Of a DNA stretch of 64,000 nucleotides, positions 13,497 to 61,748 are shown in pieces (position 1 is the stretch's first letter; the number at the start of each line of letters is the position of its first letter). Below the pieces are notes generated by a model, which saw only the letters and a program-made list of their open reading frames with translations, had not been told where the DNA came from and made no database searches. Location: positions 62,001-126,000 of the forward strand of contig CAIYIS010000080.1 in the NCBI GenBank assembly GCA_903926385.1, in the 5' to 3' direction. This DNA is from an uncultured Bacteroidota bacterium (GTDB taxonomy: Bacteria > Bacteroidota > Bacteroidia > 2-12-FULL-35-15). Both the position numbers and the translations under genes were made by a program.

Positions 13497-14687
13497 ATGT
13501 TAGCAACAATTGGAAATTCTTGGGATTTTTCTATTCCTGTCCCTCCTAGCCCTCTAGAAGTTATCCAATGGTATGCAGATGGCAATTCCGGACCTTGTCC
13601 ATCAAGCCTGATTACATTATATAATACTACGAAGCAAGGAATTAATTTTCAAGGAAATTTTACAGGAGGTCAGGCTTCTTGTTTAAATGCTTGGGAAGAT
13701 AATAATTATGGTTGGGATTTGTTTTACGGTTCAATAAATCGGCTTTTGTACGATGAGCCTTCTAATGATATTGACAAATGTAGGATGGCAGCAATATTAA
13801 GCGATGCACCTGACTACCCAGGTGGACCCTTTTATCGATCTTTTGGAAGCGGAGATCATGGTGTATCGGGGTGGAGATCAAGTCGAAGGTTTTTTGATGG
13901 TTATCCAACTCAACGGGATGGTGATGATGATTTTATGGGTAATTTTAATGGTCTTGATTATATGTTATTTCACAATCTCTATTATTTAGAAAACGACCCT
14001 CAACAATCTCATATTTCTCTTATTATGAGTTCACTATTTTACCAATTTAATGGATGGACTTACACCATAGGCCCACCTTTTATTAATTTGAATCAATTTC
14101 AAAACATATTAGTAGACAATACAGCAATTGCTCATTATCAGTCTATCTATGGCTCTGCAATAATAGTTGGTGGTTCGCAAGGGGTTACAATTGGTGATAA
14201 TGTTATTGTAGAAGAAGGAGCCTCGTTAGATGTACATAATGATATTGGTTGTTCTGTAAGTCAAGATTCCTATGTGTTTAATTCAAGCGCTTATAGGTCA
14301 ATGATTACAAACTCTTCACAGGACTCTACTTCAAACACATTAATCGTATCCCATTCGAACAACAACGTTGACCATTCATTGGCTCCGTATATGATGTCCA
14401 ATGAGTTTAAAACTGATTTTAAAGGGGAATATAATTTATCAAATTATCCGAATCCATTTAATGATAATACAACTATAGCTTTTAGTATAAAAGAAAAAGC
14501 AAATGTGAATATTACGGTAACAGATATATATGGAAAAGAGTTAGAGGAGCTAGTTAATAATGCGTCATACGAAAAAGGGAATTATACAGTTAATTTAAAT
14601 TCTGCTAAATTTGCAGCTGGAATTTATTATTGCCAAATGAAGGCTAATGAATTTTCAAAAACAATTAAATTAATTATCGCTAAATAA
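13497..14687 (+). CDS. T9SS-secreted protein of unknown function, probably 5' truncated
   Basis: 396 aa from the first ATG. Residues about 30-170 are rich in Trp, Asp, Gly and Tyr and match no family I recognise. The last 80 residues are a T9SS type A sorting domain (NYPNPFND... GIYYCQMKANEFSKTIKLI). There is no signal peptide, which a T9SS substrate needs. The same frame stays open upstream to 13296 and codes plausible protein there (for example LERKYGTPTRANIF), but has no start codon; a TGA closes it at 13293. So the gene has probably lost its 5' end at the island edge or holds a frameshift. It precedes a YCF48 protein gene by 10 nt. Confidence 0.6.
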   Translation: MLATIGNSWDFSIPVPPSPLEVIQWYADGNSGPCPSSLITLYNTTKQGINFQGNFTGGQASCLNAWEDNNYGWDLFYGSINRLLYDEPSNDIDKCRMAAILSDAPDYPGGPFYRSFGSGDHGVSGWRSSRRFFDGYPTQRDGDDDFMGNFNGLDYMLFHNLYYLENDPQQSHISLIMSSLFYQFNGWTYTIGPPFINLNQFQNILVDNTAIAHYQSIYGSAIIVGGSQGVTIGDNVIVEEGASLDVHNDIGCSVSQDSYVFNSSAYRSMITNSSQDSTSNTLIVSHSNNNVDHSLAPYMMSNEFKTDFKGEYNLSNYPNPFNDNTTIAFSIKEKANVNITVTDIYGKELEELVNNASYEKGNYTVNLNSAKFAAGIYYCQMKANEFSKTIKLIIAK

Positions 14688-14697
14688 AAACAGCCTT

Positions 14698-15876
14698 ATG
14701 AAAAAACTACTATTAATAATTTCAATTGCATTTTCAATTCACGCTAATGCACAATGGGTGCAGCAAACATCAGGGACATCTGTAAATCTTTCATCCATTT
14801 TTTTCCCAACTCCTGTTAAGGGATATTCTTTACAAGATGACGGTTTGATGAATAAAACGAGTAACGGAGGTAGCAATTGGGGTATAGCGAGCACTTACCA
14901 ATCTATGGTTGGGCAATTGTTTTTTACAAGTGCAGATACCGGATTTGCAACAAGTGCGAGTGGCGTTAGAAAAACAGTAAACGGTGGTATTTCTTGGCAA
15001 AATAATTTTCCTGATTCAGTTAATATTCTTTCAATTCATTTTCCTACCTCAAACATTGGTTATGCTCTTGGAACAAATCTAACGTATGATACTTTATATA
15101 TTTATAAAACAATAAATGGGGGTAATAGTTGGTTTTCGGTTTATACACAGCTCTCATCGGGTTATCCTACCTATGTTTTTTTCACCGACCCGTCAACTGG
15201 TTTCATTAGTTTGAGTGACGGTATTTACAAAACTACTGACGGAGGAGTTACGTTGACTAAAAAATCAATTGCCACTATTATTAATTGTATTCATTTTCCG
15301 TCTGCTAACGTAGGATATGCAGTGGGTGACAGTCTTTTTAAAACAGTAGATGCTGGAGAAACATGGACAATACAGGCTAATCCTAATTCTGCTTTGTTTT
15401 TTTCTACTTACTTCCTAAACGACAATTATGGGTATGCTTGTGGGGGAAACAATTGGAATAGTGGGCTTATTGAAAAGACAGTGGATGGAGGAGTAAATTG
15501 GACTATTGACTTATCAAGTATTCAAATAATTCATTCCCTTTCGTTCCCCAACTCAAATACAGGCTACGCTTGTGGTACAGGGGGAGTGATTTACAAACTC
15601 ACAACATCAAACGGCATCACCGAAGCCCTTGATGCCACCACCCTAACTCTTTCGCCCAACCCTGTTACAAATCAATTAACCATTACCAGTCAAAAGGCAG
15701 CACTAAAAGAAATAAAAATAATGAACTCGTTAGGTCAATGTATGCTTGCATCTACTCCACTTGGTGGAGGTAAGGAGGGGCTTGTAGATATGAGTAGTTT
15801 GGCAAACGGTATTTACTTTATCCAACTAACAGACGAAAACAAAAACGTAATTAATAAAAAGATAATTAAAGAATAA
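14698..15876 (+). CDS. secreted YCF48-like beta-propeller protein with T9SS tail
   Basis: 392 aa. Signal peptide 1-18 (ending HANAQ), then about seven repeats of roughly 40 residues with the YCF48/BNR signature (SNGGSNWG, VNGGISWQ, INGGNSWF, VDAGETWT, VDGGVNWT), each preceded by a GY(A/S) strand, giving a propeller. Residues about 315-392 form a T9SS type A sorting domain (LSPNPVTNQL ... NGIYFIQLTDENKNVINKKIIKE). The YCF48 fold in photosynthetic organisms helps assemble photosystem II; here it is more likely a surface or secreted binding module. A paralogue lies at 17564-18763. Confidence 0.85.
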   Translation: MKKLLLIISIAFSIHANAQWVQQTSGTSVNLSSIFFPTPVKGYSLQDDGLMNKTSNGGSNWGIASTYQSMVGQLFFTSADTGFATSASGVRKTVNGGISWQNNFPDSVNILSIHFPTSNIGYALGTNLTYDTLYIYKTINGGNSWFSVYTQLSSGYPTYVFFTDPSTGFISLSDGIYKTTDGGVTLTKKSIATIINCIHFPSANVGYAVGDSLFKTVDAGETWTIQANPNSALFFSTYFLNDNYGYACGGNNWNSGLIEKTVDGGVNWTIDLSSIQIIHSLSFPNSNTGYACGTGGVIYKLTTSNGITEALDATTLTLSPNPVTNQLTITSQKAALKEIKIMNSLGQCMLASTPLGGGKEGLVDMSSLANGIYFIQLTDENKNVINKKIIKE

Positions 15877-15997
15877 ACCCATGTTCCCTTTTGGAGCCAT
15901 ATTATTTTCTAAAACTTTGCCAAGAGGCAGGGGTAGAAAAATAATAAACTCCCAAGAACAATTACCCTCAGAGCAGGAAAAACAGGCAGCGGGACAA

Positions 15998-16375
15998 ACG
16001 GAAATGCGCTCCGCATTATCGAAAATGCTCAGCTCATTACCTAAAATGGTGAAAGGATTAGCCGAAATGCTGGCGGCATTAGCGCTAATGCCGTCAGCAT
16101 TCGGGCTAGGGAAATGTTCCCTAAAGGTAGGGGCGGCATCCCTGGGTTTAGTCACCTTGTGCCCGGTTTGGGGCATGGGAGCAGTAAAGTTGGCCCTGCG
16201 GGAGTCGGGCAGGGGGTGGAGTGCCTTGGGCTTGTCCCATCTTCGCCAAACTTCGAGAGCACCTCCCCCAATGTGGGCATAGTGTGCACTCAGGCCGTGG
16301 CTGAGGCCTAACTTTAGTCCCGCCATGCCTACCGTTAGGGAGCATATCCCTAAAGTTGGTCACCAAGCCTCAAAT
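15998..16375. repeat. array A: about 17 degenerate 21-bp units with dyad cores
   Basis: GC-rich tract that divides into 21-nt units from 15998. Core sites sit at unit junctions as an arm, four variable bases and the complementary arm: TTA-GCGC-TAA (16079), CTA-AAGG-TAG (16121), CTA-CCGT-TAG (16329). Early units are also hairpin-like inside (AAATGC...GCATTA). The period holds, with one slip of about 2 nt near 16.29-16.31 kb. Arms drift from CATTA/TAATG to CCCTA/TAGGG along the array. A frame through the first 13 units is open and reads as heptapeptides (KMLSSLP, KMVKGLA, EMLAALA), but it stops at 16282 while the units continue. No cas genes and no unique spacers, so not CRISPR. Confidence 0.75.
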
Positions 16376-16429
16376 CATCGTGATAACATTCTTTATCAAT
16401 ACATTAATAAACATAAAAAAATACGAATA

Positions 16430-16464
16430 GCCCCTCAACCTCTTTTTTAGAATCAGAGTGGGGC
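16430..16464 (+). promoter_or_regulatory. 5' hairpin ahead of the small gene at 16481
   Basis: GCCCCTC ... GAGTGGGGC can pair around a T-rich loop, 17 nt before the ATG. A similarly placed hairpin precedes the second small gene (31141-31179). Could be a leader structure or translation control; function unknown. Confidence 0.4.
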
Positions 16465-16480
16465 AAAAACAAAGAATAAT

Positions 16481-17152
16481 ATGGCTATAGCTAATTTTCC
16501 TGAAAAATTAGAAGAAAAAAACACTTATTATATAGGTGCCCGAAGCAGGATAGGGTTAAACATGACGAGGTTGGGAGTAACTACCGATAACAAGGATTTA
16601 CTCGATAACCTTATGGATGACGCGAACGGCTGGATAGCCGTTAAAACTAAACATTCTTCAGAAGACGGTAACACCACCACCGTTCAAAAAAGATTGGATG
16701 AGTTAGTTGGTCTGGTGGAAAATCAATTTAAAGTAATTTATGCAGATATACCTGCTTCAAGTATTAATTCGGAAGACAAAACTGTGTTTCGTTTTAATGC
16801 CGGAACCAGCACTCATGGCCACATAGTGGCTCAAAGTGTGCCGGGTGAATTAACAGTAGAGGAGTCTCATCATTTGAGTCATAAATTAAGGATTAGAAAT
16901 CCGTTAACTCCTTCGAGCGATGCTATGCCACATGGCAATAGTGCAAGAATATGGACAGCTGTAATGGCCAAAAAAGTGGATGCAAGCCAGATTACCTGGA
17001 GCGATAATCCTAAAAAAGCCACTACTCGTTTTTTCTCACAATCATTTACCGAAACTCAGGTAGGTATGTTTGCCGCATACAAAACCTGTTACGAAAATCA
17101 GACAGGAGAGCAGGGCACTCCCAGCGAACCCATCTGGATGCCTATTTGGTAA
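16481..17152 (+). CDS. small array-associated protein A, unknown function
   Basis: 223 aa, no signal peptide and no membrane segment. The N-terminal 90 residues look helical (TTVQKRLDELVGLVENQF); then comes a beta-rich part (YADIPASSINSEDKTVFRFN onward) that ends KTCYENQTGEQGTPSEPIW. That ending resembles the last strands of a fibronectin-III-like domain and matches, by eye, the end of the 220-aa protein at 31205-31867 (KT..HNTAGAGPESAP). Both genes follow a 21-bp array and a hairpin and end in a CCCGCTC/GAGCGGG terminator. I do not recognise the family. Cytoplasmic location is inferred from the lack of export signals. Confidence 0.6.
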   Translation: MAIANFPEKLEEKNTYYIGARSRIGLNMTRLGVTTDNKDLLDNLMDDANGWIAVKTKHSSEDGNTTTVQKRLDELVGLVENQFKVIYADIPASSINSEDKTVFRFNAGTSTHGHIVAQSVPGELTVEESHHLSHKLRIRNPLTPSSDAMPHGNSARIWTAVMAKKVDASQITWSDNPKKATTRFFSQSFTETQVGMFAAYKTCYENQTGEQGTPSEPIWMPIW

Positions 17153-17177
17153 ATCCGGGTTGGTGTATCATTTCAAA

Positions 17178-17212
17178 AAAAAATCCCGCTCAGCAATGAG
17201 CGGGATTTTTTT
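17178..17212 (+). terminator. intrinsic terminator after small protein A
   Basis: AAAATCCCGCTCA/TGAGCGGGATTTT stem with a 4-nt loop and a long T run. Confidence 0.9.
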
Positions 17213-17425
17213 TATTGATTATTTTTTATTGGCTATTGATTATTGGCTATTGATTATTGCCTATTCGCTATTCGCTAATGCAAAATTGCCTACTGCAAAA
17301 TTGTAGAATTCCATCCCCCTATTGCCTTTTCGCTATTCGCTATTCGCTACTGCAAAATTGCTACTGCAAAATTGTAGAATTCCATCCCCCTATTGCCTAT
17401 TCGCTATTCGCTAATGCCTAATTGA
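17213..17425. repeat. direct and short tandem repeats (37-bp exact repeat, 71-bp period)
   Basis: A 37-bp block beginning CTACTGCAAAATTGTAG is present identically at 17290-17326 and 17361-17397, within runs of (T)ATTGGCTATTGATTA and CTATTCGCTATTCG. Related AT-rich words (CAATTGGGCAATT, GGCAATA) recur at 29.86-29.90 and 30.07-30.18 kb. No coding content. Confidence 0.8.
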
Positions 17426-17531
17426 ACAATAGCCAAAGGTAACAAAGATTGAAAAGCGATGAAAGGCAAAAAAGTAGGCATCAAAATGCGAATAGGATTG
17501 AATTCATGAAATATTTAAAACAAAATTAAAT

Positions 17532-17539
17532 TAATTTTG
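17532..17539 (+). promoter_or_regulatory. -7 element TAATTTTG for the YCF48 gene
   Basis: TAnnTTTG match 24 nt before the ATG at 17564. No clear -33 TTG. Confidence 0.45.
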
Positions 17540-17563
17540 TGCCGAATTTTATAACCAACCAAA

Positions 17564-18763
17564 ATGAAAAGAAATTTATTAATCCTAATCCTTGCCTGGT
17601 CAAGCAGTACTTATGCGCAGTGGTTTCCGCAAATAAGCGGTACTAATAGTTATCTTTATTCTGCCTCCTTTCCTGATGCGTTGCACGGTTGCGCTGTTGG
17701 AAACGATGCCATTCAAGGTGCCATGGTAAGAACCGTTGATGGCGGAACCAACTGGAATGCGGTTACACTTCCTACCACTTCTCCTCTTTATGGGGTTAGT
17801 TTTCCATCGTTAACCACTGGTTATGCAGTAGCCGATACAGGTGTAATAATTAAAACTACTGATGGCGGAGCCAATTGGGTTACTCAAACTTCTACAACCC
17901 TACATTCGTTATCGGGTGTTTATTTCAGAGATACATTAACCGGCTATGCTGTGGGAACGTTAGGTACTATTTTGCGAACCAATAATGGAGGCGCAAATTG
18001 GGCATTGCAGAATGTTGGCACCAACCACTTGTATGGAGTGCATTTTCCATCCGCAGCCATTGGTTATGCTGTGGGAAATGCAGGAAGTATCTTGAAAACG
18101 GTAGATTCGGGAGCAACCTGGATGACTCAGTTGAGTGGAACAGCTCAAAATCTGCGCGGACTTTATTTTACTAGCGTGGATACAGGATATGCGGTGGGTT
18201 ATGCCGGAACAGTGCTGAAAACAGTGAATGGAGGAACCAACTGGACTGTTGTGCCAAGCGGGATAACAAATATCATCTTCTCTGTTCAGTTTCTGACCTC
18301 TAATTTAGGTTATATAACCACTACAGTAGGGCATGTATTGAAAACCACCAATGGCGGAGTAACTTGGACGACACAACCAACTGGACTCACTCATTCAATG
18401 CGAAAAGTATTTATGATAGATGCAAATGTTGGTTATTGTGTAGGCGATTCGGGTAAGGTTATCAAAACAACTACCGGAGGCGCCAGTACAGTTGGTATTG
18501 CCGACATTAACCAGAATAATTTTGGAAATTCTTGTTTGATACACCCTAGCCCCGTTAGCAGTTTATTAACCATCAATTTTAGCGCAGAACAAAGAAACAC
18601 CAGTCTGATAATTACAGATGTTTTAGGAAATATTGTTCATCAATCTACAATCAATACACGCCAATATATGATGGACATGAGCAACTTTGCCAGCGGAGTT
18701 TATTTCGTGCGGATAGAAGATGTGAATAAAAATTTGGTGAATAAGAAGATAATCAAGGATTAA
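17564..18763 (+). CDS. secreted YCF48-like beta-propeller protein with T9SS tail (second copy)
   Basis: 399 aa. Signal peptide 1-18 (ending TYAQ). Seven clear repeats of about 42 residues, each with GYAVG and a (T/N)(D/N)GG(A/T)NW signature, form a closed propeller up to about residue 315; a T9SS type A sorting domain follows (IHPSPVSSLL ... ASGVYFVRIEDVNKNLVNKKIIKD). It parallels the protein at 14698-15876 but its repeats are more regular. It has its own -7 element and its own terminator, so it is monocistronic. Role unknown; probably extracellular or surface-attached. Its tail is close to the gene relic at 35623. Confidence 0.87.
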   Translation: MKRNLLILILAWSSSTYAQWFPQISGTNSYLYSASFPDALHGCAVGNDAIQGAMVRTVDGGTNWNAVTLPTTSPLYGVSFPSLTTGYAVADTGVIIKTTDGGANWVTQTSTTLHSLSGVYFRDTLTGYAVGTLGTILRTNNGGANWALQNVGTNHLYGVHFPSAAIGYAVGNAGSILKTVDSGATWMTQLSGTAQNLRGLYFTSVDTGYAVGYAGTVLKTVNGGTNWTVVPSGITNIIFSVQFLTSNLGYITTTVGHVLKTTNGGVTWTTQPTGLTHSMRKVFMIDANVGYCVGDSGKVIKTTTGGASTVGIADINQNNFGNSCLIHPSPVSSLLTINFSAEQRNTSLIITDVLGNIVHQSTINTRQYMMDMSNFASGVYFVRIEDVNKNLVNKKIIKD

Positions 18764-30461: not shown

Positions 30462-30469
30462 TATATTTG
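30462..30469 (+). promoter_or_regulatory. -7 element TATATTTG upstream of array B
   Basis: TAnnTTTG match. No -33 TTG at the normal spacing. If used, the transcript would run through array B into the gene at 31205, leaving the array in a leader of about 730 nt. Confidence 0.4.
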
Positions 30470-30523: not shown

Positions 30524-30631
30524 ATGACTCAAAACACAACCACAGCAAAGCATTGCGCAGAGCGCGTTTCGAAGGCTCCGAAAGCCTTGTGGTTATTGAG
30601 TTTTACCCCCCCCATTTATTTTATAGGCTAA
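30524..30631 (+). CDS. possible 35-codon leader peptide
   Basis: ATG at 30524, about 50 nt after the -7 element, opens a 35-codon frame (MTQNTTTAKHCAERV... ending IYFIG). The first half uses Bacteroidota-like codons; the second half is low-complexity. No homology recognised. May be chance. Confidence 0.2.
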   Translation: MTQNTTTAKHCAERVSKAPKALWLLSFTPPIYFIG

Positions 30632-30777
30632 AAGCCTTTATTAACAAGCCTTTCAGGGGCATTCTCCTTTCTTATTTTTTTGCTTTTTTTAGTGTTTTTG
30701 GTTCGGCTTATAGTTGGTTTGGCTCATCTCCATTTGTTAAAAAATACCCCCATTTTTGGCTAAAATATGCCCAAAAA

Positions 30778-31040
30778 TACAACTGTATGAATGGTTCATA
30801 CAACTGTATTTGCCATTTTTTGAACTGTATGAGGAGTTCATACAACTGTATTTGTCATTTTTTGAACTGTATGAGGGGTTCGTACAACCGTATTTGCTCC
30901 TTTACCAATCGTATTGGGTACGCATACAACCGTATTGAACCTTCTACCAACCGTATGCATGAGCTTTACGGTTGTAAACCTATTGATTACGGTTGTAAAC
31001 CATTTGCATACGATTGTAAAGGGAGTATTTACCATCGTAT
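30778..31040. repeat. array B: 13 units of exactly 21 bp with TAC-NNNN-GTA dyad cores
   Basis: Cores begin at 30778 and recur every 21 bp to 31030. All 13 end in GTA; nine begin TAC (the others TTG or ACC). Inner four bases run AACT (5), AACC/AATC/AACC/AACC, GGTT, GGTT, GATT, CATC. GGTT and GATT are the reverse complements of AACC and AATC, so three units are flipped while phase is kept. The 11-bp spacers vary, though some alternate (TATTTGCCATTT, TATGAGGAGTTC). Both strands show open frames reading as 7-residue units (YNCICHF; NTVVRTP), which any stop-free 21-bp period would give. Confidence 0.85.
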
Positions 31041-31140
31041 TTGGGCCTGTTTTTACCCTATTTTGATATATATTAATGTTATTCAGCATAATAACGATTT
31101 TTTGACGTAACATAAAACGACATTACAGAATGGAAAAAAA

Positions 31141-31204: not shown

Positions 31205-31867
31205 ATGTCAGCACGAGCTGTAAAAATTAAACGAAAGAACGACCAGGACAAACCTGGAGACGTTCAAAGCATTACCGAGACGGTAGGGGCCAACACCTCT
31301 ACCAGCACTATCACGGCTGTTGCGGCCAAAGGAGCTTTGGCTACCACTGCAGCCGGAACTCTGAGAACTTCTATTACAGACAACACAAACAAACACAATG
31401 CTGCCGTAGCCGCTACAGGGGTTATGCACAGCAAAAATGGGCTTGCAGCCGAGGCTTACAATAATTTGGCTGCTGTGGTAGAAATCGAAATTCCGAACGA
31501 TCCGGATGCCTGGAAAGCATTTGGATTTGAATTAACAAAAAGCGAAGCAACTGCGGTGCCGTTGCCGGGGCCGGTGGTAAACGGAGGAGTGAGCAATGGC
31601 GACTTTTTGGGTACTGCCGACATTCATCACGACCCAGTGGCGGGTGCTAAAAATTACACTCACCGTGTAACCAAAGGCGACCCTACCAAAGACGAATCGT
31701 ATATTGCTGTTACCAGTCCTACAGTGCAATATACCAAAAGCAGCGCTACTGTGGATGTTCCGGCAGATTACCTTAATGTGCCATTATTTTGGAAAACTAC
31801 GGCTCATAACACAGCCGGTGCAGGACCAGAATCGGCTCCTTATGGCGGTTGCCGCATAAACGGGTAA
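31205..31867 (+). CDS. small array-associated protein B, unknown function
   Basis: 220 aa, no signal peptide. Basic start (MSARAVKIKRKNDQDK), then an Ala/Thr-rich, probably helical part (about 35-95), then a beta-rich C-terminal part (VEIEIPNDPDAWKAFGFEL to the end) that looks like a fibronectin-III-type domain, closing with LFWKTTAHNTAGAGPESAP. The arrangement (helical N-half, D/EIP motif near 90-95, KT..N..G.G.. S.P near the end) parallels protein A at 16481-17152; the identity is low. Preceded by array B and a hairpin, followed by a CCCGCTC-type terminator. GC content is higher than in its neighbours. Function unknown. Confidence 0.6.
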   Translation: MSARAVKIKRKNDQDKPGDVQSITETVGANTSTSTITAVAAKGALATTAAGTLRTSITDNTNKHNAAVAATGVMHSKNGLAAEAYNNLAAVVEIEIPNDPDAWKAFGFELTKSEATAVPLPGPVVNGGVSNGDFLGTADIHHDPVAGAKNYTHRVTKGDPTKDESYIAVTSPTVQYTKSSATVDVPADYLNVPLFWKTTAHNTAGAGPESAPYGGCRING

Positions 31868-31898: not shown

Positions 31899-31936
31899 CA
31901 ATCCTGCTCGAGCAGTTGAGCGGGATTGTTTTTTTA
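31899..31936 (+). terminator. intrinsic terminator after small protein B
   Basis: Stem CAATCCTGCTC/GAGCGGGATTG with an 8-nt loop and T run. Confidence 0.85.
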
Positions 31937-32014
31937 AAAGTAAAAAGTGGAGACCAGAACCCACTTTAATAAACGGGGCATGAAAAACTAATGTGGCGAC
32001 TACGCAAAAATAGA

Positions 32015-33748
32015 ATGAAAAAAACAATTACAACATTTTTAACATTTATGATTATAAACATTAGTGTTTTTGCACAACAAAATATTTGGGCAGAAGCTCC
32101 ATTTGCAACAGTTTTTGCAATGACTATTGACAATGCAGGGAATACTTTTCTTACAGGTAACTTTCCAAGTGGGGGAAATAATTACGATTTTGACCCGGGA
32201 CCGGGAACAGCTTACCTAAATGATTTACTTAACGGAAATGCATTTATTGCAAAATATGATAGTGCCGGGCATTATGTTTGGGCAAAAAGTTTTGGTGCAA
32301 GTGCTGAACCTTTTTCAATTGCTGTAGATGCCGCTGATAATGTTATAATTACTGGTCAACTTACAGTTTCAGCTGATTTTGACCCAAGCGCAGCCACAGC
32401 TATTTTATCGGGAACAAATAAATTGTTTCTTGCAAAATACGACAGTAATGGAAATTATTTATGGGCGGGAATACAACAAGGTTGGGGGCATGGTAAGGGT
32501 ACCTCTTTAAAAACAGATGCTTCAAACAATATTTATGTTACAGGAACTTTTTCATCCGACTCTGCTGATTTCAATATGGGTTCGGGTGTTGCAAATCTTT
32601 ATGCTCCTTCTTCCGGTTCTCCCAGAATGTTTGTAGCAAAATATGACCCTAACGGTGCCTATATTTGGGCGCATTCTATGGATTCCCCTTCAACATCTTC
32701 CTCTGTTGTTTCACCAGTAAAAATTGATTTGGATGCTACAGGTAATATAGTTGTCGCAGGAAGTTTTAATGGCTCTATTGATTTTAATATTAGTGCAACA
32801 ATAAGCTATGCATCTTCAGCCGGATTTGATGATATATTTATGGCTAAATTTGACAACAGTTGTAATTTACTTTGGGTTGAAAGAATTGGAGCTGCAAGTT
32901 ATGACGATCTTAATTCAATGTCTTTAGATGGTTCAGGAAATATTGTATTAGTTGGTAGTTTTATAAATACCGTAGATTTTAATCCGGGAGTTGGTACTGC
33001 AAATATAGCAGGCGGAACGGGTGGTAGCAATTTCATCGCGAAATACAGTTCAACGGGAGCCTATCTTTGGGCAGAAAAAATAAGTTCTTCTCCTGCTGCC
33101 AGCTTTTATGGTGTTGCAACAGATGGAAATGGCAATGTTGTAACAACCGGAAGCTTTACAGGAACGGTTGATTTTGACCCTTCTTCTGGAGTATCTACCT
33201 TGGTAAGCACAAGCACTGGAGTAAGTCCTTCAGATGATGTTTTTTTGGCAGAGTATAGTAGCGGAGGTAGCTATTTGTGGGCATTCAAAATTGGATATTC
33301 CGGCTCTGATGTGGGGAAGTTTATTTATGTTGATGGAGGAAATAATATATTTACATCGGGTTATGCTTCGGGCTTTGCTATGCCTTACAATCTTGATTTC
33401 CAACCAGGGGTTGATTCTAATATTGTAACAATGAGTAATTCACAGGCTTATTATTTAGCAAAATATTTCGGACCAATAGTGACTGTTGGAGTGGCAGAAA
33501 CTCAAAATGAAAACGGAATCACTATTTATCCAAATCCTTTCACTTCGAAAACAACCATTGATTTTAATGAAGAACAAAAGAACATTATTATTAGAATAGT
33601 TGACATGTTAGGCAAAGAAATAGCAACAATAAACTTTACAGGCAGACAATATGTAATTGAAAAAGAAAATATGAAAGCAGGTATTTATTTTGTGATGATA
33701 ACGGATGAAAAGAAAAATGTGGTGAATAGGAAAATAATAATTGAATAA
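32015..33748 (+). CDS. secreted SBBP-type beta-propeller protein with T9SS tail
   Basis: 577 aa from the ATG at 32015. An ATG 24 nt upstream is possible, but MKKTITTFLTFMIINISVFAQ at 32015 is a proper signal peptide. The body holds about eight repeats of 50-55 residues, each with a FDPG or FNPG turn, (I/L)AKYDS-G-Y-WA and a D--GN(V/I) strand, the SBBP beta-propeller pattern. The last 75 residues are a T9SS type A sorting domain (IYPNPFTSKT ... AGIYFVMITDEKKNVVNRKIIIE). Exported and probably surface-bound; ligand unknown. It follows small gene B as the YCF48 gene follows small gene A. Confidence 0.85.
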   Translation: MKKTITTFLTFMIINISVFAQQNIWAEAPFATVFAMTIDNAGNTFLTGNFPSGGNNYDFDPGPGTAYLNDLLNGNAFIAKYDSAGHYVWAKSFGASAEPFSIAVDAADNVIITGQLTVSADFDPSAATAILSGTNKLFLAKYDSNGNYLWAGIQQGWGHGKGTSLKTDASNNIYVTGTFSSDSADFNMGSGVANLYAPSSGSPRMFVAKYDPNGAYIWAHSMDSPSTSSSVVSPVKIDLDATGNIVVAGSFNGSIDFNISATISYASSAGFDDIFMAKFDNSCNLLWVERIGAASYDDLNSMSLDGSGNIVLVGSFINTVDFNPGVGTANIAGGTGGSNFIAKYSSTGAYLWAEKISSSPAASFYGVATDGNGNVVTTGSFTGTVDFDPSSGVSTLVSTSTGVSPSDDVFLAEYSSGGSYLWAFKIGYSGSDVGKFIYVDGGNNIFTSGYASGFAMPYNLDFQPGVDSNIVTMSNSQAYYLAKYFGPIVTVGVAETQNENGITIYPNPFTSKTTIDFNEEQKNIIIRIVDMLGKEIATINFTGRQYVIEKENMKAGIYFVMITDEKKNVVNRKIIIE

Positions 33749-36263: not shown

Positions 36264-37406
36264 TCAAGCTTTGTGTATGTGGAAAGGGCAACCTGCTTGT
36301 TTTTCCATTTCTTCGGCAGTAGGTTTTCGCCAGGCTGCAAATTCGCGATAAAAATTGGGAGCTACCACTTCGTTTTTCCATTCTCTGAAAAATGTTTTAG
36401 TAGCCGAGCCCGACATAGGAGGTACTATCCACGACCAGTCGGCATTAATTTCTCTTCCGCATTCGTTTTCCGATTCTTCAAAATTGATGAATTGGTCGGT
36501 AGCGGTGTGATGGTCTACCATGGCTACTTTACTTTTTTGATAAGAATGTAAAACAGCTAGGTTGAGTTCGAGCAAGGCTCTGTCTTTCCAAAGGGTGCTG
36601 TTCTTGGAAGTATCTAATCCCATACGTGCAGCCAAAGTGGGCAAAACATTATAACGTTGCTCGTCTCCGAAATTGCGCGAAGCTATTTCTGTTTCCATAT
36701 ACCAACCGTTGAAAGGCACAGCAGAGTATACAATGCCGCCTATCTCCAACACCATATTAGAAATGATAGGCACAGCATACCATTTTAAGCCAAGCTCTTT
36801 GAACCACTCCAGAGTGGGATGTTCGATGTTTACTTCGTTAATAAAACTATCGGGAATAGGAACCAACACCGGAGGATGGTCGGCAATTTGAATAACCAAA
36901 GGCAAAATATCAAAATCAGTCTTCGCACTTTTCCAACCCAGCTTTATACATTCGGCCGTAAACTCCAGCGAATCGGGGTCGCCTATTATTTTATTTCCTT
37001 CCGCCTGATAGCCTGCATATCTTACCAATTGTGCATTCCATATTTTGATAGAATTGTTTTTCACTTCGTCTGCTTGTCTGAAAACTGTAACACTGGGGCG
37101 AATCTTGCCATCGTTGTAAGCAAACTTAATATGATTAAGCATCTCATCACATATTTCTTTTTCAGTAGTCAGGTGGCGTTGGTCTCTCACCGAAAGTTTT
37201 TTCCAGAAAAACCTACCTATACATCGGTTGCTGTTTCGCCAGGCTATCTTTGCTCCGTGCTCCAATTCAAGAGCGGTGTGAACGTAAGTGCCCGTGCGGG
37301 CTATTTCATCTTTTACTTCTGTTAATCTTTTTTCCAGATTATCCCATTCGTTTTCGGAATAACATTGCTTGAGAAAAGTTTCTGCTTTTGATACTAATAA
37401 ATTCAT
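36264..37406 (-). CDS. nos: bacterial nitric oxide synthase oxygenase domain protein
   Basis: 380 aa, the length of stand-alone bacterial NOS proteins, which lack the reductase half and borrow electrons from cellular flavoproteins. They oxidise L-arginine to citrulline and nitric oxide. The heme thiolate is Cys62 in the signature WRNSNRCIGR; the arginine-binding Glu240 is in NGWYMETE; and PFNGWYM, IGGIVYSAVPF and the C-terminal pterin-site segment (ADWSWIVPPMSGSATK, FHREW-type FFREW) are present. It stands alone between terminators, with no visible reductase or regulator. Physiological roles elsewhere are oxidative-stress defence and signalling; the role here is unknown. Confidence 0.93.
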   Translation of the reverse strand: MNLLVSKAETFLKQCYSENEWDNLEKRLTEVKDEIARTGTYVHTALELEHGAKIAWRNSNRCIGRFFWKKLSVRDQRHLTTEKEICDEMLNHIKFAYNDGKIRPSVTVFRQADEVKNNSIKIWNAQLVRYAGYQAEGNKIIGDPDSLEFTAECIKLGWKSAKTDFDILPLVIQIADHPPVLVPIPDSFINEVNIEHPTLEWFKELGLKWYAVPIISNMVLEIGGIVYSAVPFNGWYMETEIASRNFGDEQRYNVLPTLAARMGLDTSKNSTLWKDRALLELNLAVLHSYQKSKVAMVDHHTATDQFINFEESENECGREINADWSWIVPPMSGSATKTFFREWKNEVVAPNFYREFAAWRKPTAEEMEKQAGCPFHIHKA

Positions 37407-49677: not shown

Positions 49678-50373
49678 TTACGCTAGCAGTTTTTCCAACT
49701 TCATTTTCCATTTTTCCCAATCCGGCATTTCCTTGGTTTGTAGGTCAATAAACTTTTGGGTATGGTCGTGATGAATGAGGTGGCAGAGTTCGTGAATGAT
49801 AACATATTCAATACACCCCTTTGGTGCTTTAATCAATTCAGGATTGAGAATTATTTTGCCTTTGGGTGTGCAGCTTCCCCACCGGGTTGGCATCTCTCTC
49901 AACACGATTGACGAGGGTTCTACATTATGTTTCTTGAATTTGTCAATGATTGGTTTTGCAGTGGAATGAAACTTTGTTTTCGCATTTTGTAAATACCATT
50001 CGTTTATTAATTGTTTCACTTTTGATTTGTTGTTTGTAGTAACTTCAATATACTGTCCCTTCAGTTTCACTGATTCTATTTTGCTTTGAATAATTTTCAA
50101 ACGATATTGCCTGCCAAGATAAAGATGTGATTCGCCACCTACAAATTTTCTTGTCGGTGTTTTTGGATGGAAAGAAAGAAAGAAACTTTGTTGTTTTATA
50201 ATCCAAGGTGCTTTCTTTTTTAGTTTTTCTTTAACCTTATCCAACGAAGTATCAACAGGTGCTTTTACTAAAACAGTTAAGTCCGGTGTAACAGTAATAC
50301 CTAAAGATTTCCTGGAGGAATATTCTAATCGGAAATCTATTTGTTTTGAACCGAAAGAAATTGATTGTATCAT
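49678..50373 (-). CDS. YgjP-like zinc metallopeptidase (M48-like/SprT-like)
   Basis: 231 aa. The motif IIHELCHLIHHDHTQKF (HExxH with a third His further on, about residues 190-206) and the family strand LREMPTRWGSCTPKGKIILNPELI are present. YgjP/WLM-like metallopeptidases are often encoded next to hsdR. Start ATG 50373 overlaps the hsdR stop by 4 nt. Substrate unknown; it may process a host or phage protein, but this is inference. Last gene of the operon. Confidence 0.85.
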   Translation of the reverse strand: MIQSISFGSKQIDFRLEYSSRKSLGITVTPDLTVLVKAPVDTSLDKVKEKLKKKAPWIIKQQSFFLSFHPKTPTRKFVGGESHLYLGRQYRLKIIQSKIESVKLKGQYIEVTTNNKSKVKQLINEWYLQNAKTKFHSTAKPIIDKFKKHNVEPSSIVLREMPTRWGSCTPKGKIILNPELIKAPKGCIEYVIIHELCHLIHHDHTQKFIDLQTKEMPDWEKWKMKLEKLLA

Positions 50374-53300
50374 TTCTTGTAACGAATTTTAGCAACATTG
50401 ACGCACAGTTCCGCCACCTTGTCAATTTCTTCAAAACTCATTTGCAGGTAGTATTTATCTCTCACTTCATCAATTAAATAATCGCCAATCAGGTGAATCA
50501 TTTTTTTAGGAACATCTACTTCATTTTGCCAATTTACTTTTATGAGTTTTTTTATTATTTCATCAATTGCCAATGCGGTATGTGCAGAAATTTGTTTTCG
50601 TGTTTCTGAATCACTCACTTTGTTTTGTAATTCCTCATTAGTGATTCCATAAAATGCCTTTGCCACATCAACATTTTGTAGCGATGCAGGAATATCAGTA
50701 TCGGTATGTGACAAAACAGCATCCATTATTTCTTTCACTTTGTTTAAATATTGCGCCTCGTTAATTCGTTTGGTTTCATAATCTGCAATAGCATCTTTTA
50801 GCATCTGGGAAAACTTTTTATAGAAAGCAGGGTCTTCCTCCATTTTCTCTGTAATGTGTTTTGCAGTCCTGCTAACAATCTTGTCTGCTTTTGCAACCTT
50901 ACCAATAGTATTCTCAACTTCCTCCTGAAATTTTTCTTTGTCAAAAATATTCACCAACTCTGTTATGGTTGCCACACCTTCGGTTTGAATATGAGTATCA
51001 ATTAGTTTTTGAATTTGCCCCTCGTATTGTTTGTAATCAATCACATCAGAATACCGTTGCAATACAGCGGTTCTTAATTTTATAAAAAATGCTAAATCAT
51101 CTTTATATCGTTTCATTGTTTTTTCATCTGTGTTTTTGTGAAAGTCAATAGATGAAAAAGCCAGTTTCAAAAGTTTTGCAAATGCTGCCAGTTTATCATA
51201 AAAATCAACTCTTATCGCTTCGTCTTTTAATAATAGTTGATATGCTTCTGCATCTCTTTTGTTTGAAATCGTTTTGAAAATATCCCATAATTCAGAATAT
51301 TTCTGTGGTAATTTTTTTATTTCTTCATTGATATTGGTGAGAGTTCCCAACAAATCCTCATTGTCAAAATCTTCAAATGATGAATACATTTCCAATGCTT
51401 CATCCAAATTTTGAATCACGCCATAATAGTCTATGATGTATCCATAATCCTTATCAGGATAAACACGGTTTACCCTTGCAATAGCTTGTAATAAGGTATG
51501 TCCTTTTAAATTCCGTGTGAGATAAAGAACAGTATTTTTTGGTTCATCAAATCCGGTTAAGAGTTTATCTACTACAATAATTATTTCAGGTTTGTCTGAT
51601 TTTTTAAAACGATTGATAAGATTATTCTGGTATTTTTTTGGTGTGCCATGTTCATCCATCATCTTTTTCCAAAATACTTTCACCTTGTCGGTTGATTCAG
51701 CATAAGCACTATCTTCACCTTCCCTTTCATCAGTTGGAGAAATTAAAACTTCTGTACTGACAATTCCTATTTCATCAAGAAACATTTTATATTTGATTGC
51801 AGCATCTTTATTTTGTGTTACCAATTGCCCTTTGAAAGGTGTTCTACCCTGAAAATTATCCCGGTAATGATAACTTATGTCCCAACAAATAGCATAAATT
51901 TTTTGCTCGGCAATATTCAGCTGGTCTGCTCTTGAAAATTTTCTTTTCAAATCCGCTTTCTGAAATTCATTCAAAGGTTCTGATATGTTACTAAAAAATT
52001 CATCAATTGGTTTTTCATGTACCGTTTGTTTCGCAAACCTTCCTTCATACAATAAAGGGACAACCGCTTTATCTTTTACAGCCTGGTCAACAGTATAAGC
52101 ATCTATCATTCCACCAAACTTGACTGCCGTACTTTTATCCTTTTTGAAAAGTGGTGTTCCGGTAAATGCAATGAAACAAGCATTAGGTAAAGTCTTTTGC
52201 ATTTCGATATTGAATGTACCATGTTGTGTTCGGTGTCCTTCATCTACCAAAACAAATATGTCGTGGCTCTCCAATGGTTTTGTGATTTTTTTAACTGCTG
52301 CTTCAAACTTATTAATTACAGTTGTAACTACTGAATCACTTTTGCTTTCTAACAATTCAACCAATCTCTGCCCTGTCGTTGCATTCTCTACAAACATTCC
52401 GCACTTGCGAAATGTCCCTGTTATCTGGTCGTCTAAATCTATGCGGTCAGTTACTAATATTATTTTAGGATTGCGGATTTGTTTTTCTAATGCGATTGCT
52501 TGAGCAAGCATTACCATTGTCAAAGATTTTCCGCTTCCCTGTGTATGCCATACTACACCACCTATTCTTCTTCCATTTTCCAAATGTAAAATCCTGTGAA
52601 TTGATTTTTTTATTACAAAGTATTGCTGATAACGTGCAATCTTTTTTTCGCCATTATCAAACAAAATGAAATTAAAAGCTAAATCCATCAGCCTTTCAGG
52701 TCGGCATAAACTATAAAGGTATTCATCTTGTTTGGTGGGCAATATGTTTTCGCTTTCAAGTGCATCAAAGTAAGAGCGGACATAACGAAACCGTTCTGAA
52801 AACAATTTGCTTTTCTGGTCTGGACTTAAAGGTTGGTTTTTTAAAGTATGTAGAATTCCATTGTAATTATTTTCCTGTTCTTTGTTCTCAAATTTTTCAT
52901 TCCAAATAGCCCAAAACTCTTCCGTTGTTCCATTGGTTGCATATTTTGCTGAATCAGTTGCAATGCTCAAAATACTTTGTGCATATACATACAAACTCCG
53001 AATACCATCTTCCTGCTGATTTCGTAACTGCTGACTAATTGCTTGTTGTAATGGCTCTTTCATATCTGGTCGCTTGCACTCAATGATACAAAATGGAATT
53101 CCATTTACAAACAAAACTAAATCCGGGCGGTAATGTTCTTTGCTCATGCTACGCATTACCCCAAATTCTTCGGTTACATGAAATACATTGTTCTCTATAT
53201 TTTTCCAATCAATGTATTGCATTGTAAAACTTTTTTTATCCCCATCAATGCTTTGTTCTAAATCCTTTCCTAATGTAATACGGTTGTAAGCCACTTCACA

Positions 53301-53582
53301 AGCAGCTATGTAACCCTCATTCATTGGTAAATCTTTCAATGCTAATATTCCAGTTTCAATGTTTGCATCCGTAAACAAAGAAGTTTTAGTTGAACTAACC
53401 TTAATGCTATTGATTTCCTTTAGCTGATTCCGCAATACTTTTTCCAAAATCACATTACTGGTTTTGTTGCTTCTCAATTCCAATGCTTCTTCAGGACTTA
53501 GATATATATAACCCAATTTTTGCAATAACTGCAAAGCAGGGATTTGACTTATGTGGTCTTCTTTAAAACTTGGTGTGTCCAT
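50370..53582 (-). CDS. hsdR: type I restriction enzyme R subunit (HsdR)
   Basis: 1070 aa, full length. Nuclease domain: RPDLVLFVNGIPFCIIECKRP (about 152-172), the D...ExK site. Helicase domains: Walker A VVWHTQGSGKSLTMVM (about 343-358), DEGH in VLVDEGHRTQHG, SAT-like AFTGTPL, and motif VI QAIARVNRVYPDKDYG. A helical C-terminus (about 820-1070) binds the methylase complex. It translocates DNA with ATP and cuts it when HsdS sites are unmethylated. It is separated from hsdS by six inserted genes. Confidence 0.95.
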   Translation of the reverse strand: MDTPSFKEDHISQIPALQLLQKLGYIYLSPEEALELRSNKTSNVILEKVLRNQLKEINSIKVSSTKTSLFTDANIETGILALKDLPMNEGYIAACEVAYNRITLGKDLEQSIDGDKKSFTMQYIDWKNIENNVFHVTEEFGVMRSMSKEHYRPDLVLFVNGIPFCIIECKRPDMKEPLQQAISQQLRNQQEDGIRSLYVYAQSILSIATDSAKYATNGTTEEFWAIWNEKFENKEQENNYNGILHTLKNQPLSPDQKSKLFSERFRYVRSYFDALESENILPTKQDEYLYSLCRPERLMDLAFNFILFDNGEKKIARYQQYFVIKKSIHRILHLENGRRIGGVVWHTQGSGKSLTMVMLAQAIALEKQIRNPKIILVTDRIDLDDQITGTFRKCGMFVENATTGQRLVELLESKSDSVVTTVINKFEAAVKKITKPLESHDIFVLVDEGHRTQHGTFNIEMQKTLPNACFIAFTGTPLFKKDKSTAVKFGGMIDAYTVDQAVKDKAVVPLLYEGRFAKQTVHEKPIDEFFSNISEPLNEFQKADLKRKFSRADQLNIAEQKIYAICWDISYHYRDNFQGRTPFKGQLVTQNKDAAIKYKMFLDEIGIVSTEVLISPTDEREGEDSAYAESTDKVKVFWKKMMDEHGTPKKYQNNLINRFKKSDKPEIIIVVDKLLTGFDEPKNTVLYLTRNLKGHTLLQAIARVNRVYPDKDYGYIIDYYGVIQNLDEALEMYSSFEDFDNEDLLGTLTNINEEIKKLPQKYSELWDIFKTISNKRDAEAYQLLLKDEAIRVDFYDKLAAFAKLLKLAFSSIDFHKNTDEKTMKRYKDDLAFFIKLRTAVLQRYSDVIDYKQYEGQIQKLIDTHIQTEGVATITELVNIFDKEKFQEEVENTIGKVAKADKIVSRTAKHITEKMEEDPAFYKKFSQMLKDAIADYETKRINEAQYLNKVKEIMDAVLSHTDTDIPASLQNVDVAKAFYGITNEELQNKVSDSETRKQISAHTALAIDEIIKKLIKVNWQNEVDVPKKMIHLIGDYLIDEVRDKYYLQMSFEEIDKVAELCVNVAKIRYKK

Positions 53583-53583
53583 T

Positions 53584-54132
53584 TTAATCCTTTAAATAAG
53601 TATATAAACAGAAAATTCCTGCTAAAGGAAAGGTTATATAAGCAGAAATGGTTATCCAAACGGCAATAGTGAAATAGGAATATTTTCTACTTGCTATTAT
53701 CGAGTTCTGTCTGATTTGTTCGGCAATATCTTTTTCAAAATCTGGGGGTAAATTTTCCTTCAAATCATATTGGGTTTTATTAATTTCATTCATTATTTCT
53801 AAAGTAGTTTTTGTTTTAAGATACTCAAAGAATAAAGTGTTTGCAATGTTTCCAGACGCATAATATCCGCCTTTAATTATTTTAACTCTCGGTGCAAATG
53901 ATATTAGAGCACAAATGCTCGAAAACGCCAACTGTACTATTACAAAAAACAAATAATAACTTAGAAAAGAATTATCCTTTACAAGTTCTAAATCGTAGGT
54001 TTTTGTAATACCGTATATTGATGCAGCGTTAAATGCTAGCATCATTGCGTTTTTTGCCTCTGCAAACTTTAACCAGTCATTCACGTTTGAAAATACTTTA
54101 AAAAGTCTTTCTTCGTTTGTCATTTCTGCCAT
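53584..54132 (-). CDS. Pycsar-type membrane effector (PycTM/DUF5706-like)
   Basis: 182 aa. A short N-terminal helix carries VNDWLKFAEAKNAMMLAFNAAS (about 14-35), the conserved W.KFAE.KN...L..N pattern of the DUF5706/PycTM family, then membrane helices at about 58-80 and 152-178. The segment between them is charged. PycTM effectors are thought to damage the inner membrane when they bind cyclic pyrimidine nucleotides. The gene directly follows a class III cyclase (15-nt gap) and precedes hsdR by 1 nt. Family assignment by pattern; effector role by analogy. Confidence 0.7.
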   Translation of the reverse strand: MAEMTNEERLFKVFSNVNDWLKFAEAKNAMMLAFNAASIYGITKTYDLELVKDNSFLSYYLFFVIVQLAFSSICALISFAPRVKIIKGGYYASGNIANTLFFEYLKTKTTLEIMNEINKTQYDLKENLPPDFEKDIAEQIRQNSIIASRKYSYFTIAVWITISAYITFPLAGIFCLYTYLKD

Positions 54133-54147
54133 GATAAAATTTTGTTA

Positions 54148-55143
54148 TTATTTAATATCCCAATTTACATTTCCTCCATACACTTTTTGGGAAACATTTT
54201 TAATTACTTGCTTTTGTTCAATCCAATAGTTATTAATAATATCATTTCTTTTGGAATTTTCGTTTTTAATTCCATTATAAACTTCCCCTGTCATTAAAAT
54301 TGCAGGATAAGATTTCGTTCTCTTTTTTTTTGAAAAATTTATAATATTTCCCCCCATCATATAAAGTTCTCCAGGTTTAATACTACTTATATTATTTGCA
54401 AATTCTTCAGTAGTCATTTCTACTGTTTCAAGAGTAGTTAAATAGTAAGGTGCAAGAGGGTCATAAGATGAATTGCTGGCATATAAAGAGAGGTAGTTAA
54501 AAAAAGGCTTAATTGCTCTGGGATTGATTGGGTTTCTAATCACTTCAAAATAAGTTTCTTCAATTGTTTTATTTGCTACATCAGTCAATCTTGATGCAAT
54601 GTTTGCAGGATAGCCTACCCAAACTAATCCTTTATTTTCTCCATTTTCATTTCCATTTCTTTGAATTCCAACCTTAATTACCCTTAGTTCACCATAGTCA
54701 ATTCCTATCCCACATTTGAAATCAACACCTTTGAATTGTTGATTAATGATAAATTTTGCAATATGATTGATTGAGATAGCGCAATTAACGGCATTTGTAA
54801 AACAATCAGTTGATGGAAAAACTATCATAACTCTATCGCCAATAATATTTCGAGTATGACCACTATGGTGGCGTGCTACTTTCAAAACTGCTTTTGTAAA
54901 AGCAGTATAGATTCTACCCATAGTTTGAGTATGATGCTTTTCTGTTAACGCAACAGAATTTCTTATATCAACGTAAAGGACGCAAGTTTCAATTTTTTTA
55001 CCTTTTTTATCTTTGCCACTTTCATAAGTAAGTTCCCCATCCATTGAATTAGGCACTACTCTCGTATCATTGTGAATGAAATTCGTTTTAGTAACATCTA
55101 TCACATCCTTTTCAATTTCCTCTATTATGCTTTTTACCGACAT
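54148..55143 (-). CDS. class III nucleotide cyclase (PycC-like, probable Pycsar cyclase)
   Basis: 331 aa. The cyclase domain (about 50-185) keeps both metal Asp (LYVDIRNSVALTE; RNIIGDRVMIVFP), GIGIDYG, and the transition-state pair Asn and Arg in WVGYPANIASRLTDV. The WVG-PAN-ASRLTD segment is like that of Pycsar cyclases, which make cUMP or cCMP. The C-terminal 150 residues are unusual for a bacterial adenylate cyclase and may be sensory. It lies between another cyclase and a PycTM-like gene. All catalytic residues look intact. Pyrimidine specificity is inference from context. Confidence 0.75.
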   Translation of the reverse strand: MSVKSIIEEIEKDVIDVTKTNFIHNDTRVVPNSMDGELTYESGKDKKGKKIETCVLYVDIRNSVALTEKHHTQTMGRIYTAFTKAVLKVARHHSGHTRNIIGDRVMIVFPSTDCFTNAVNCAISINHIAKFIINQQFKGVDFKCGIGIDYGELRVIKVGIQRNGNENGENKGLVWVGYPANIASRLTDVANKTIEETYFEVIRNPINPRAIKPFFNYLSLYASNSSYDPLAPYYLTTLETVEMTTEEFANNISSIKPGELYMMGGNIINFSKKKRTKSYPAILMTGEVYNGIKNENSKRNDIINNYWIEQKQVIKNVSQKVYGGNVNWDIK

Positions 55144-55155
55144 ATTATTTTATAT

Positions 55156-55944
55156 TTATATATAACCAGGGAATTTCATATACTTTACTTTAGTAAAATC
55201 AACACCTTGTAATTTACCTGATTCAAATCCTCTACATGAAACAATCGATTTATCAAAAATGCTGTAGTCCCAACCTAAGTGGTCGTAAGATGAACCATCA
55301 TAAAAGTTTATTGCATTGGACTTGGAAACACTCTCTAACCTGTATAAGTCAGTAATTGGTTGACCTATTATTGTGTATTCTCCATAATGTTCCCCTGGCA
55401 CCTTGTAATAATTCACAGTTCCTTTATGTATAGCAACTTTTACATTCTTACCTGAACCATGAAACTTTTTGATAGCTTCTTCAGCACATGTTTCTGCTTT
55501 ATAAACATGTTGGGGATTTGGCAAATCCAAAAATGGTTTACCGAACACACAAATAATTCCATCGCCCATTAACTTCTCAATTTCACCACCATTTCTATAA
55601 ATAATTGGAATTATTTTTTTATAGTAGTCATCCAAGTAATTTTTCATTTTTGAATTTGTCCATCCAGAAATAGTTTTCGAAAAGGAAGTAATATCAATAA
55701 AAAGCAAGACGACATCTTCTTCTCTCCCTTCATCAAAATATTTAATTAGGTCAGGTTTTGCAGGGTTTAAGTTTTCGTTAATAAACGAAAACATTCTTCT
55801 TTCATTTAGGCTACCCGAATCAAATGCTTTTTTTAAAATATCCTTAGCTTCCGATTTTTCTAAATAATTTTTCACCATTCTGTCTTTAACGTTCAACTCA
55901 TAGAACTCCTGTTTTAGGGAATAAATTTGATTAAGATTTGGCAT
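55156..55944 (-). CDS. second class III nucleotide cyclase-like protein
   Basis: 262 aa. A helical N-terminus (1-80) is followed by a cyclase domain with the metal Asp pair (LLFIDITSFSKTISG; EKLMGDGIICVFG) and YTIIGQPITDLYRLESV in the place of the Asn/Arg motif. The aligned Asn is Thr here (N to T at the TDLYR site) while the Arg is kept, so activity may be altered, or it may act as a partner. A 12-nt gap separates it from the next cyclase. Heterodimers of two class III domains are known elsewhere; here this is only a suggestion. Confidence 0.65.
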   Translation of the reverse strand: MPNLNQIYSLKQEFYELNVKDRMVKNYLEKSEAKDILKKAFDSGSLNERRMFSFINENLNPAKPDLIKYFDEGREEDVVLLFIDITSFSKTISGWTNSKMKNYLDDYYKKIIPIIYRNGGEIEKLMGDGIICVFGKPFLDLPNPQHVYKAETCAEEAIKKFHGSGKNVKVAIHKGTVNYYKVPGEHYGEYTIIGQPITDLYRLESVSKSNAINFYDGSSYDHLGWDYSIFDKSIVSCRGFESGKLQGVDFTKVKYMKFPGYI

Positions 55945-55974
55945 TTCTTTTTATTTATAAATAGTTTAAATTTT

Positions 55975-57081: not shown

Positions 57082-57089
57082 TAATTAAT

Positions 57090-57953: not shown

Positions 57954-57954
57954 A

Positions 57955-60200: not shown

Positions 60201-60207
60201 TCTTTTC

Positions 60208-61743: not shown

Positions 61744-61748
61744 TTTAT

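Follow-up and report, generated by a model that had tools for sequence, protein, structure and literature searches.

Between rpoC and a gene encoding a protein of 220 amino acids (aa), the window (the whole 64,000-nucleotide [nt] stretch of Bacteroidota DNA analysed here) carries a noncoding array of palindromes repeated every 21 base pairs (bp). Arrays of this kind are phase-locked, dyad-symmetric and without strand bias, are tied to families of small proteins and are duplicated in trans. We tentatively interpret the array as a noncoding double-stranded DNA element that most likely serves as a multivalent platform on which a symmetric, oligomeric DNA-binding factor docks, with the linked protein as the first candidate for that factor. 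The results point to a bacterial DNA element of a kind not yet described; no description of such arrays was found in the searchable part of the literature, which omits most subscription papers. The features of the locus are as follows.

30462..30469, + strand: possible Bacteroidota -7 element, TATATTTG (TAnnTTTG), approximately 310 nt 5' of the array; weak, and without a matching -33 box.
30757..31101, no strand: array plus short edges, duplicated colinearly at approximately 83,755-84,087 of contig C9 of the same genome (G000:C9; 79% identical).
30770..31063, no strand: 21-bp phased palindrome array of 13 units with TACAAYYGTA cores, detected by autocorrelation against all other lags.
31205..31867, + strand: linked gene, 220 aa, with the array 5' of it; supported by homologues and an AlphaFold model.
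31908..31936, + strand: hairpin and T run resembling an intrinsic terminator, immediately following the linked gene and evident from the sequence itself.

The 13 units start at 30778, 30799, 30820 and so on to 31030, every step being exactly 21 bp, and three of them (at 30967, 30988 and 31009) are flipped in phase; on both points an earlier note on this DNA is borne out. It had also described the outer bases as fixed, which is incorrect: the exact core TACNNNNGTA is present in 9 of 13 units, and the other four have a decayed 5' (left) arm (TTGAACTGTA at 30820 and 30862, ACCAATCGTA at 30904, and ACCAACCGTA at 30946). Its list of the inner four bases (AACC, AACT and AATC, or GGTT and GATT) lacks the CATC of the final core, TACCATCGTA, and its limits of 30778-31040 place the array correctly and are slightly short, as periodicity reaches approximately 30757-31101, matching the extent of the segment that has a second copy in the genome. 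Nine exact in-phase cores and 73 matched outer bases are observed, compared to at most 2 and 42, respectively, in 2000 dinucleotide-shuffled versions of the segment.

The window protein had no Pfam or NCBIfam match in a profile search. Its AlphaFold model has a helical N-terminus (residues 17-31 and 37-95) and an FN3-like beta domain (approximately residues 125-217), and helices followed by an FN3-like domain are seen in two AlphaFold models with pLDDT values of 83 and 94.5. Foldseek matches of the models are all FN3 or Ig-like, with FN3 structures at E values of about 1e-5. PF00041 (FN3) is matched by 29 of 46 members of the wider family, the window protein being FN3 by fold only. Profile and Foldseek searches found no catalytic or known DNA-binding domain in the linked protein; this result, the mixed isoelectric points (pI) of the family (median 9.25) and the acidic pI of the window protein (6.3) count against the linked protein as the binder. 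A plasmid or phage origin was rejected, as one family protein had no match in plasmids and another had none in phages; PHROG hits appear to reflect the shared FN3 fold.

The 220-aa gene has homologues in 7 of the 36 genomes from its genus, mostly with arrays immediately 5' and at 21 bp. These arrays differ in their units, for example GAAACAATTGTTTC (L008), CCAAGTACACTTGG (L007), TGCAGTACTGCA (L009 and L010) and GACATCATATGATGTC (L037). With a wider homologue (L027) as the query, related genes were found in 42 of 395 genomes of the class. Averaged over 86 loci, the best upstream self-match is 0.39-0.43 at lags of 8-63, except at 21 (0.638), 42 (0.679) and 63 (0.638). The 5' array scores above all of its own shuffles at 69 of these loci, and among the loci without such an array, at least six carry one 3' of the gene. 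The earlier note had proposed checking the period in related genomes and had named a unique array, with no phase conservation in relatives, as evidence against its reading; the period is kept, as 68 arrays from across the class (7-29 units each) have 21 bp at 1006 of their 1027 steps between units, under a fitting procedure that penalises other steps. A few related arrays have a pitch of 20, approximately 20.5, approximately 20.7 or 22 bp, values that are near two turns of B-DNA and are not multiples of three. Three arrays of G019 (L101, L106 and L067, with pitches of 20, approximately 20.7 and 20.5 bp) come from one genome and one protein subfamily. Array similarity drops to background below approximately 45% protein identity, and orthologous cassettes are not syntenic, the orthologous gene sitting in other genomic contexts in G012, G021 and G032. 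Unit sequence varies by locus, and period, dyad symmetry and adjacency to the gene persist; across the class, homologues of the window protein almost always adjoin a 21-bp array on one side or the other, and the link of arrays to protein families looks obligate.

Arrays also occur without the gene. The C9 copy is colinear over the whole window array, including the inverted units; its flanks are unrelated, the gene is not copied, and the copy lies between a FAD-dependent gene on the minus strand and a secreted-protein gene on the plus strand. At this site (G000:C9, approximately 83,755-84,446; L241), one intergenic region contains a pair of solo arrays that belong to different sets and follow each other, resembling a landing site. 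About a dozen further homologous sets occur in the same genome, usually with one gene-linked and one or two solo members (C45:1.7k with C81:135k and C2:70k; C45:97k with C45:62k; C2:88k with C81:74k; C7:49k with C45:23k; and others), and homology between copies mostly stops at the array ends. Over 14 pairs, identity is 0.827 in core columns and 0.771 in spacers (p about 2e-5), and for the window and C9 pair the values are 0.86 and 0.74; the difference varies by pair, with none in some pairs.

TACAAYTGTA arrays are present at two or more loci in all four genomes with an orthologue of the window gene (G012, G021 and G032 each have one gene-linked array and further ones elsewhere), and are absent from 31 of 32 genomes without an orthologue, the exception being G034, which has a solo array. 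The pair flanking the core is A..T in most genomes and G..C on both sides in G012. A second TACAAYTGTA array in G021 (C155) adjoins another FN3-family member (L282), so cores and proteins do not pair up strictly, contradicting a rule of one core per protein. The neighbours of solo arrays differ between species, and orthologous arrays usually resemble each other less than copies from one genome do. A role for solo arrays as conserved sites of regulation was rejected, since solo positions are not kept between species.

The window lies on contig C80 of a 4.27-Mb draft genome (G000), of which approximately 1.46 Mb was covered overall and 1.21 Mb was scanned with no preselected lag. Self-match segments number 51, 61 and 41 at lags 21, 42 and 63, compared to 0-8 at each other lag from 12 to 62. 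Merging gives 68 arrays in the 1.21 Mb, some of which are weak or inside other repeats (e.g. L168_741 and L170_64), so that approximately 60 is a safer count. Array density is about one per 16-18 kb; the scanned contigs were partly picked for family genes, and unselected contig starts are similar, with approximately one array per 16 kb. It looks as if the whole genome holds a couple of hundred arrays. More than 94% of array bases are intergenic, compared to 22% of all sequence. Random stretches of six genomes without the family (G185, G142, G240, G218, G014 and G017) contain no or almost no arrays; among family-bearing genomes, G034 has seven in 100 kb and G019 has one. Of 27 wider-family genes found in the window's own genome, approximately 25 adjoin an array in the fetched flanks (0.12 expected per gene), and about half of these arrays lie 3' of the gene. 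Further small proteins without a known family are found beside arrays, namely the group of the 223-aa protein described below and an L137/L153 group. A group of 317-329-aa proteins with no Pfam match also adjoins 21-bp arrays (L119:17441-18394, L165:12743-13693, L174:4836-5822 and L152:1044-1997).

The window itself contains a second array and linked gene:

15998..16376, no strand: another 21-bp array, more diverged than the first and built of other palindromes (e.g. AATGCG-CTC-CGCATT and TAGGGAA-ATG-TTCCCTA), detected by self-match.
16481..17152, + strand: linked gene of the second array (223 aa), whose paralogue at G000:C81 is 59% identical.

The 223-aa protein is very distant from, or unrelated to, that encoded at 31205. 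AT-rich tandem repeats of another kind (periods 7, 14, 21 and 71) follow its gene at 17213-17413. Both cassettes, together with genes for proteins with secretion-type C-terminal tails (13497-18763 and 31991-33748), lie within or next to the nusG-rplK-rplA-rplJ-rplL-rpoB-rpoC cluster, which normally runs without interruption. Elsewhere in the window, a protein with a nitric oxide synthase oxygenase domain (36264-37406, minus strand; PF02898, E 1.5e-162) is encoded with no obvious reductase nearby. A dense defence island (50370-63092, minus strand) encodes a type I restriction enzyme and specificity subunit, a patatin-like phospholipase effector, two CD-NTase cyclases (57090-57953 and 60208-61743), two Pycsar-cyclase-like proteins, a PDC-S21/DUF4917 protein and a Fic protein.

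Self-complementarity of the unit consensus exceeds that of column shuffles (p<0.05) in 50 of the 68 family arrays and in 32 of the 68 arrays from the window's own genome, and Watson-Crick pairing at the best dyad is 0.50, compared to 0.26 at other centres. (A second dyad midway between cores is automatic in periodic palindromes and is not independent evidence.) The earlier note had read the inversions as selection on a dyad at the DNA or RNA level and not on a protein, and the data agree, favouring DNA. A functional RNA strand should favour G.T mismatches, but G.T and A.C are balanced: G.T/(G.T+A.C) is 0.467 and 0.449 at dyads and 0.454 in controls, indicating that the symmetry acts on double-stranded DNA and not on an RNA hairpin. 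The occurrence of arrays 5', 3' or without any family gene also favours the DNA level. Covariation of the arms, which the note had suggested examining, is weak when pooled (0.502 versus 0.497; 0.479 versus 0.453) and is thus left out of the main evidence. It is improbable, then, that the arrays are RNA elements, whether hairpins that form in the 5' leader sequence of the mRNA of the linked gene or small RNAs, that bind protein or control translation. A TAnnTTTG-like promoter does lie 5' of the array in the window and in L004, and some arrays (L031, L009 and L018) resemble strings of hairpins in which both arms carry changes, but neither strand-biased wobble pairs nor an Rfam family matching the arrays was found, and arrays also lie 3' of genes or alone. 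A role solely as promoter or operator of the linked gene is excluded by the 3' and solo arrays; the TAnnTTTG motif has no overall enrichment. The probability is slighter by far that the array codes for a protein of seven-residue repeats in the frame at 30553-31110, translation of which the earlier note had named as evidence against its reading. The frame is open and 21 is 3 x 7, but it has no family match, column variability is without a period of 3 (p<0.05 in only 5 of 68 and 2 of 68 arrays), and relatives have periods of 20, approximately 20.5, approximately 20.7 and 22 bp; the missing codon periodicity and the periods not divisible by 3 largely refute a coding heptad repeat.

Two explanations at the DNA level have to be weighed against a docking platform. 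Non-autonomous repetitive DNA, similar to satellites or MITEs, could spread between intergenic regions and grow by unequal recombination or slippage; the palindromes and 21-bp length would then reflect the copying machinery instead of a bound protein, and the linked genes would be passengers or would supply copying activity. We consider this unlikely, but it keeps its standing because solo arrays have no conserved positions and the most similar copies usually come from one genome; solo copies at unrelated sites, homology that mostly ends with the array, and the lack of synteny between orthologous cassettes are also in its favour. It does not account for cores that are better conserved than spacers or for the tight link to particular protein families across the class, and we know of no copying process with a 21-bp ruler. 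Still less likely are the arrays to be architectural DNA, in which two-turn repeats would sum small bends to curve the DNA or mark chromosome domains, with no specific recognition. Such a role would suit a pattern in which only period matters over long times and in which arrays are dispersed between genes approximately every 16-18 kb, but it leaves unexplained the palindromes, the cores shared by gene-linked and solo arrays, and the linked protein families. Curvature by A-tracts was rejected, as A-tract phasing is found in only 15 of 68 arrays. Counting for the docking platform are cores that outconserve spacers, a period and symmetry that outlast sequence, the dyads with their balanced mismatches, the link to genes, the existence of gene-linked and solo copies, the presence of TACAAYTGTA arrays in the genomes with the orthologue, and the two-sided change of the flanking pair in G012; counting against it are the properties of the linked protein given above, the mismatches of core and protein in G021 and G034, solo positions that differ between species, and the palindromic consensus of only 32 of 68 own-genome arrays.

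As a docking platform, the array would present sites of two-fold symmetry at intervals of two helical turns, on which identical dimers might line up along one face of the DNA and act cooperatively; the 21-bp phase fits a placement of all sites on one helical face. A cassette would comprise an array and the adjacent gene for a small helical and FN3-like protein, with gene-free copies of the array in other intergenic regions: one locus would make the protein and hold one array, and solo arrays would be further sites in trans. We infer from these patterns that a factor may bind the arrays, as dimers and on one face, that the linked protein may be this factor, and that there may be an effect on transcription or chromosome folding.

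Several known systems share some of these properties. Plasmid and phage iterons are direct repeats of approximately 17-22 bp, helically phased and beside the gene of their binding protein, sometimes with copies elsewhere. The arrays described here are likewise phased with the helical turn, beside a gene and copied elsewhere; however, iterons serve a Rep initiator and no Rep domain was found in the linked proteins, and here the units are palindromic and differ in sequence, with approximately one array per 16-18 kb of chromosome. The parS clusters of ParABS systems are palindromic sites near the binding-protein gene and elsewhere, with a nearly universal sequence. The present sites are similarly placed, with a candidate binder, but parS is not arrayed every 21 bp and no ParB-like domain was found here. 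CRISPR and TIGR arrays have repeats with variable spacers and an associated gene, as do the arrays here, in which, unlike in those systems, the unit is 21 bp, the repeats drift, and the spacers are periodic too. In place of near-identical repeats, unrelated spacers and a cas locus, periodicity here extends over all of the 21-bp unit; neither a Cas nor a Tas protein was recognised, no cas gene was recognised among the array neighbours listed, and a PADLOC scan of the window proteins returned CBASS, Pycsar and type I restriction-modification models and no Cas. REP/BIME and GTAG/CGTC repeats are dispersed intergenic palindromes in many copies, as are the arrays here (PMC3733652). REPs have one family sequence and a tag in common, whereas each set here has its own sequence, a 21-bp phase and a linked gene (PMC3733652). 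The unit consensus differs between most arrays, so they do not form one shared repeat family.

We propose, a little more tentatively than the docking platform itself, that these arrays belong to a new system, in which each of many small proteins per genome (helical and FN3-like, or of other folds) has its own array of palindromes at a two-turn pitch, with gene-free copies acting in trans. If this proposal is right, genomes in part of the Bacteroidota each contain hundreds of phased palindrome arrays, every one tied to a fast-changing protein family, and annotation overlooks this layer of chromosome biology because it labels the proteins hypothetical or FN3 and treats the arrays as spacer. These would offer many natural protein and site variants for the study of cooperative DNA recognition, and a testable case in which DNA symmetry and helical pitch outlast sequence.
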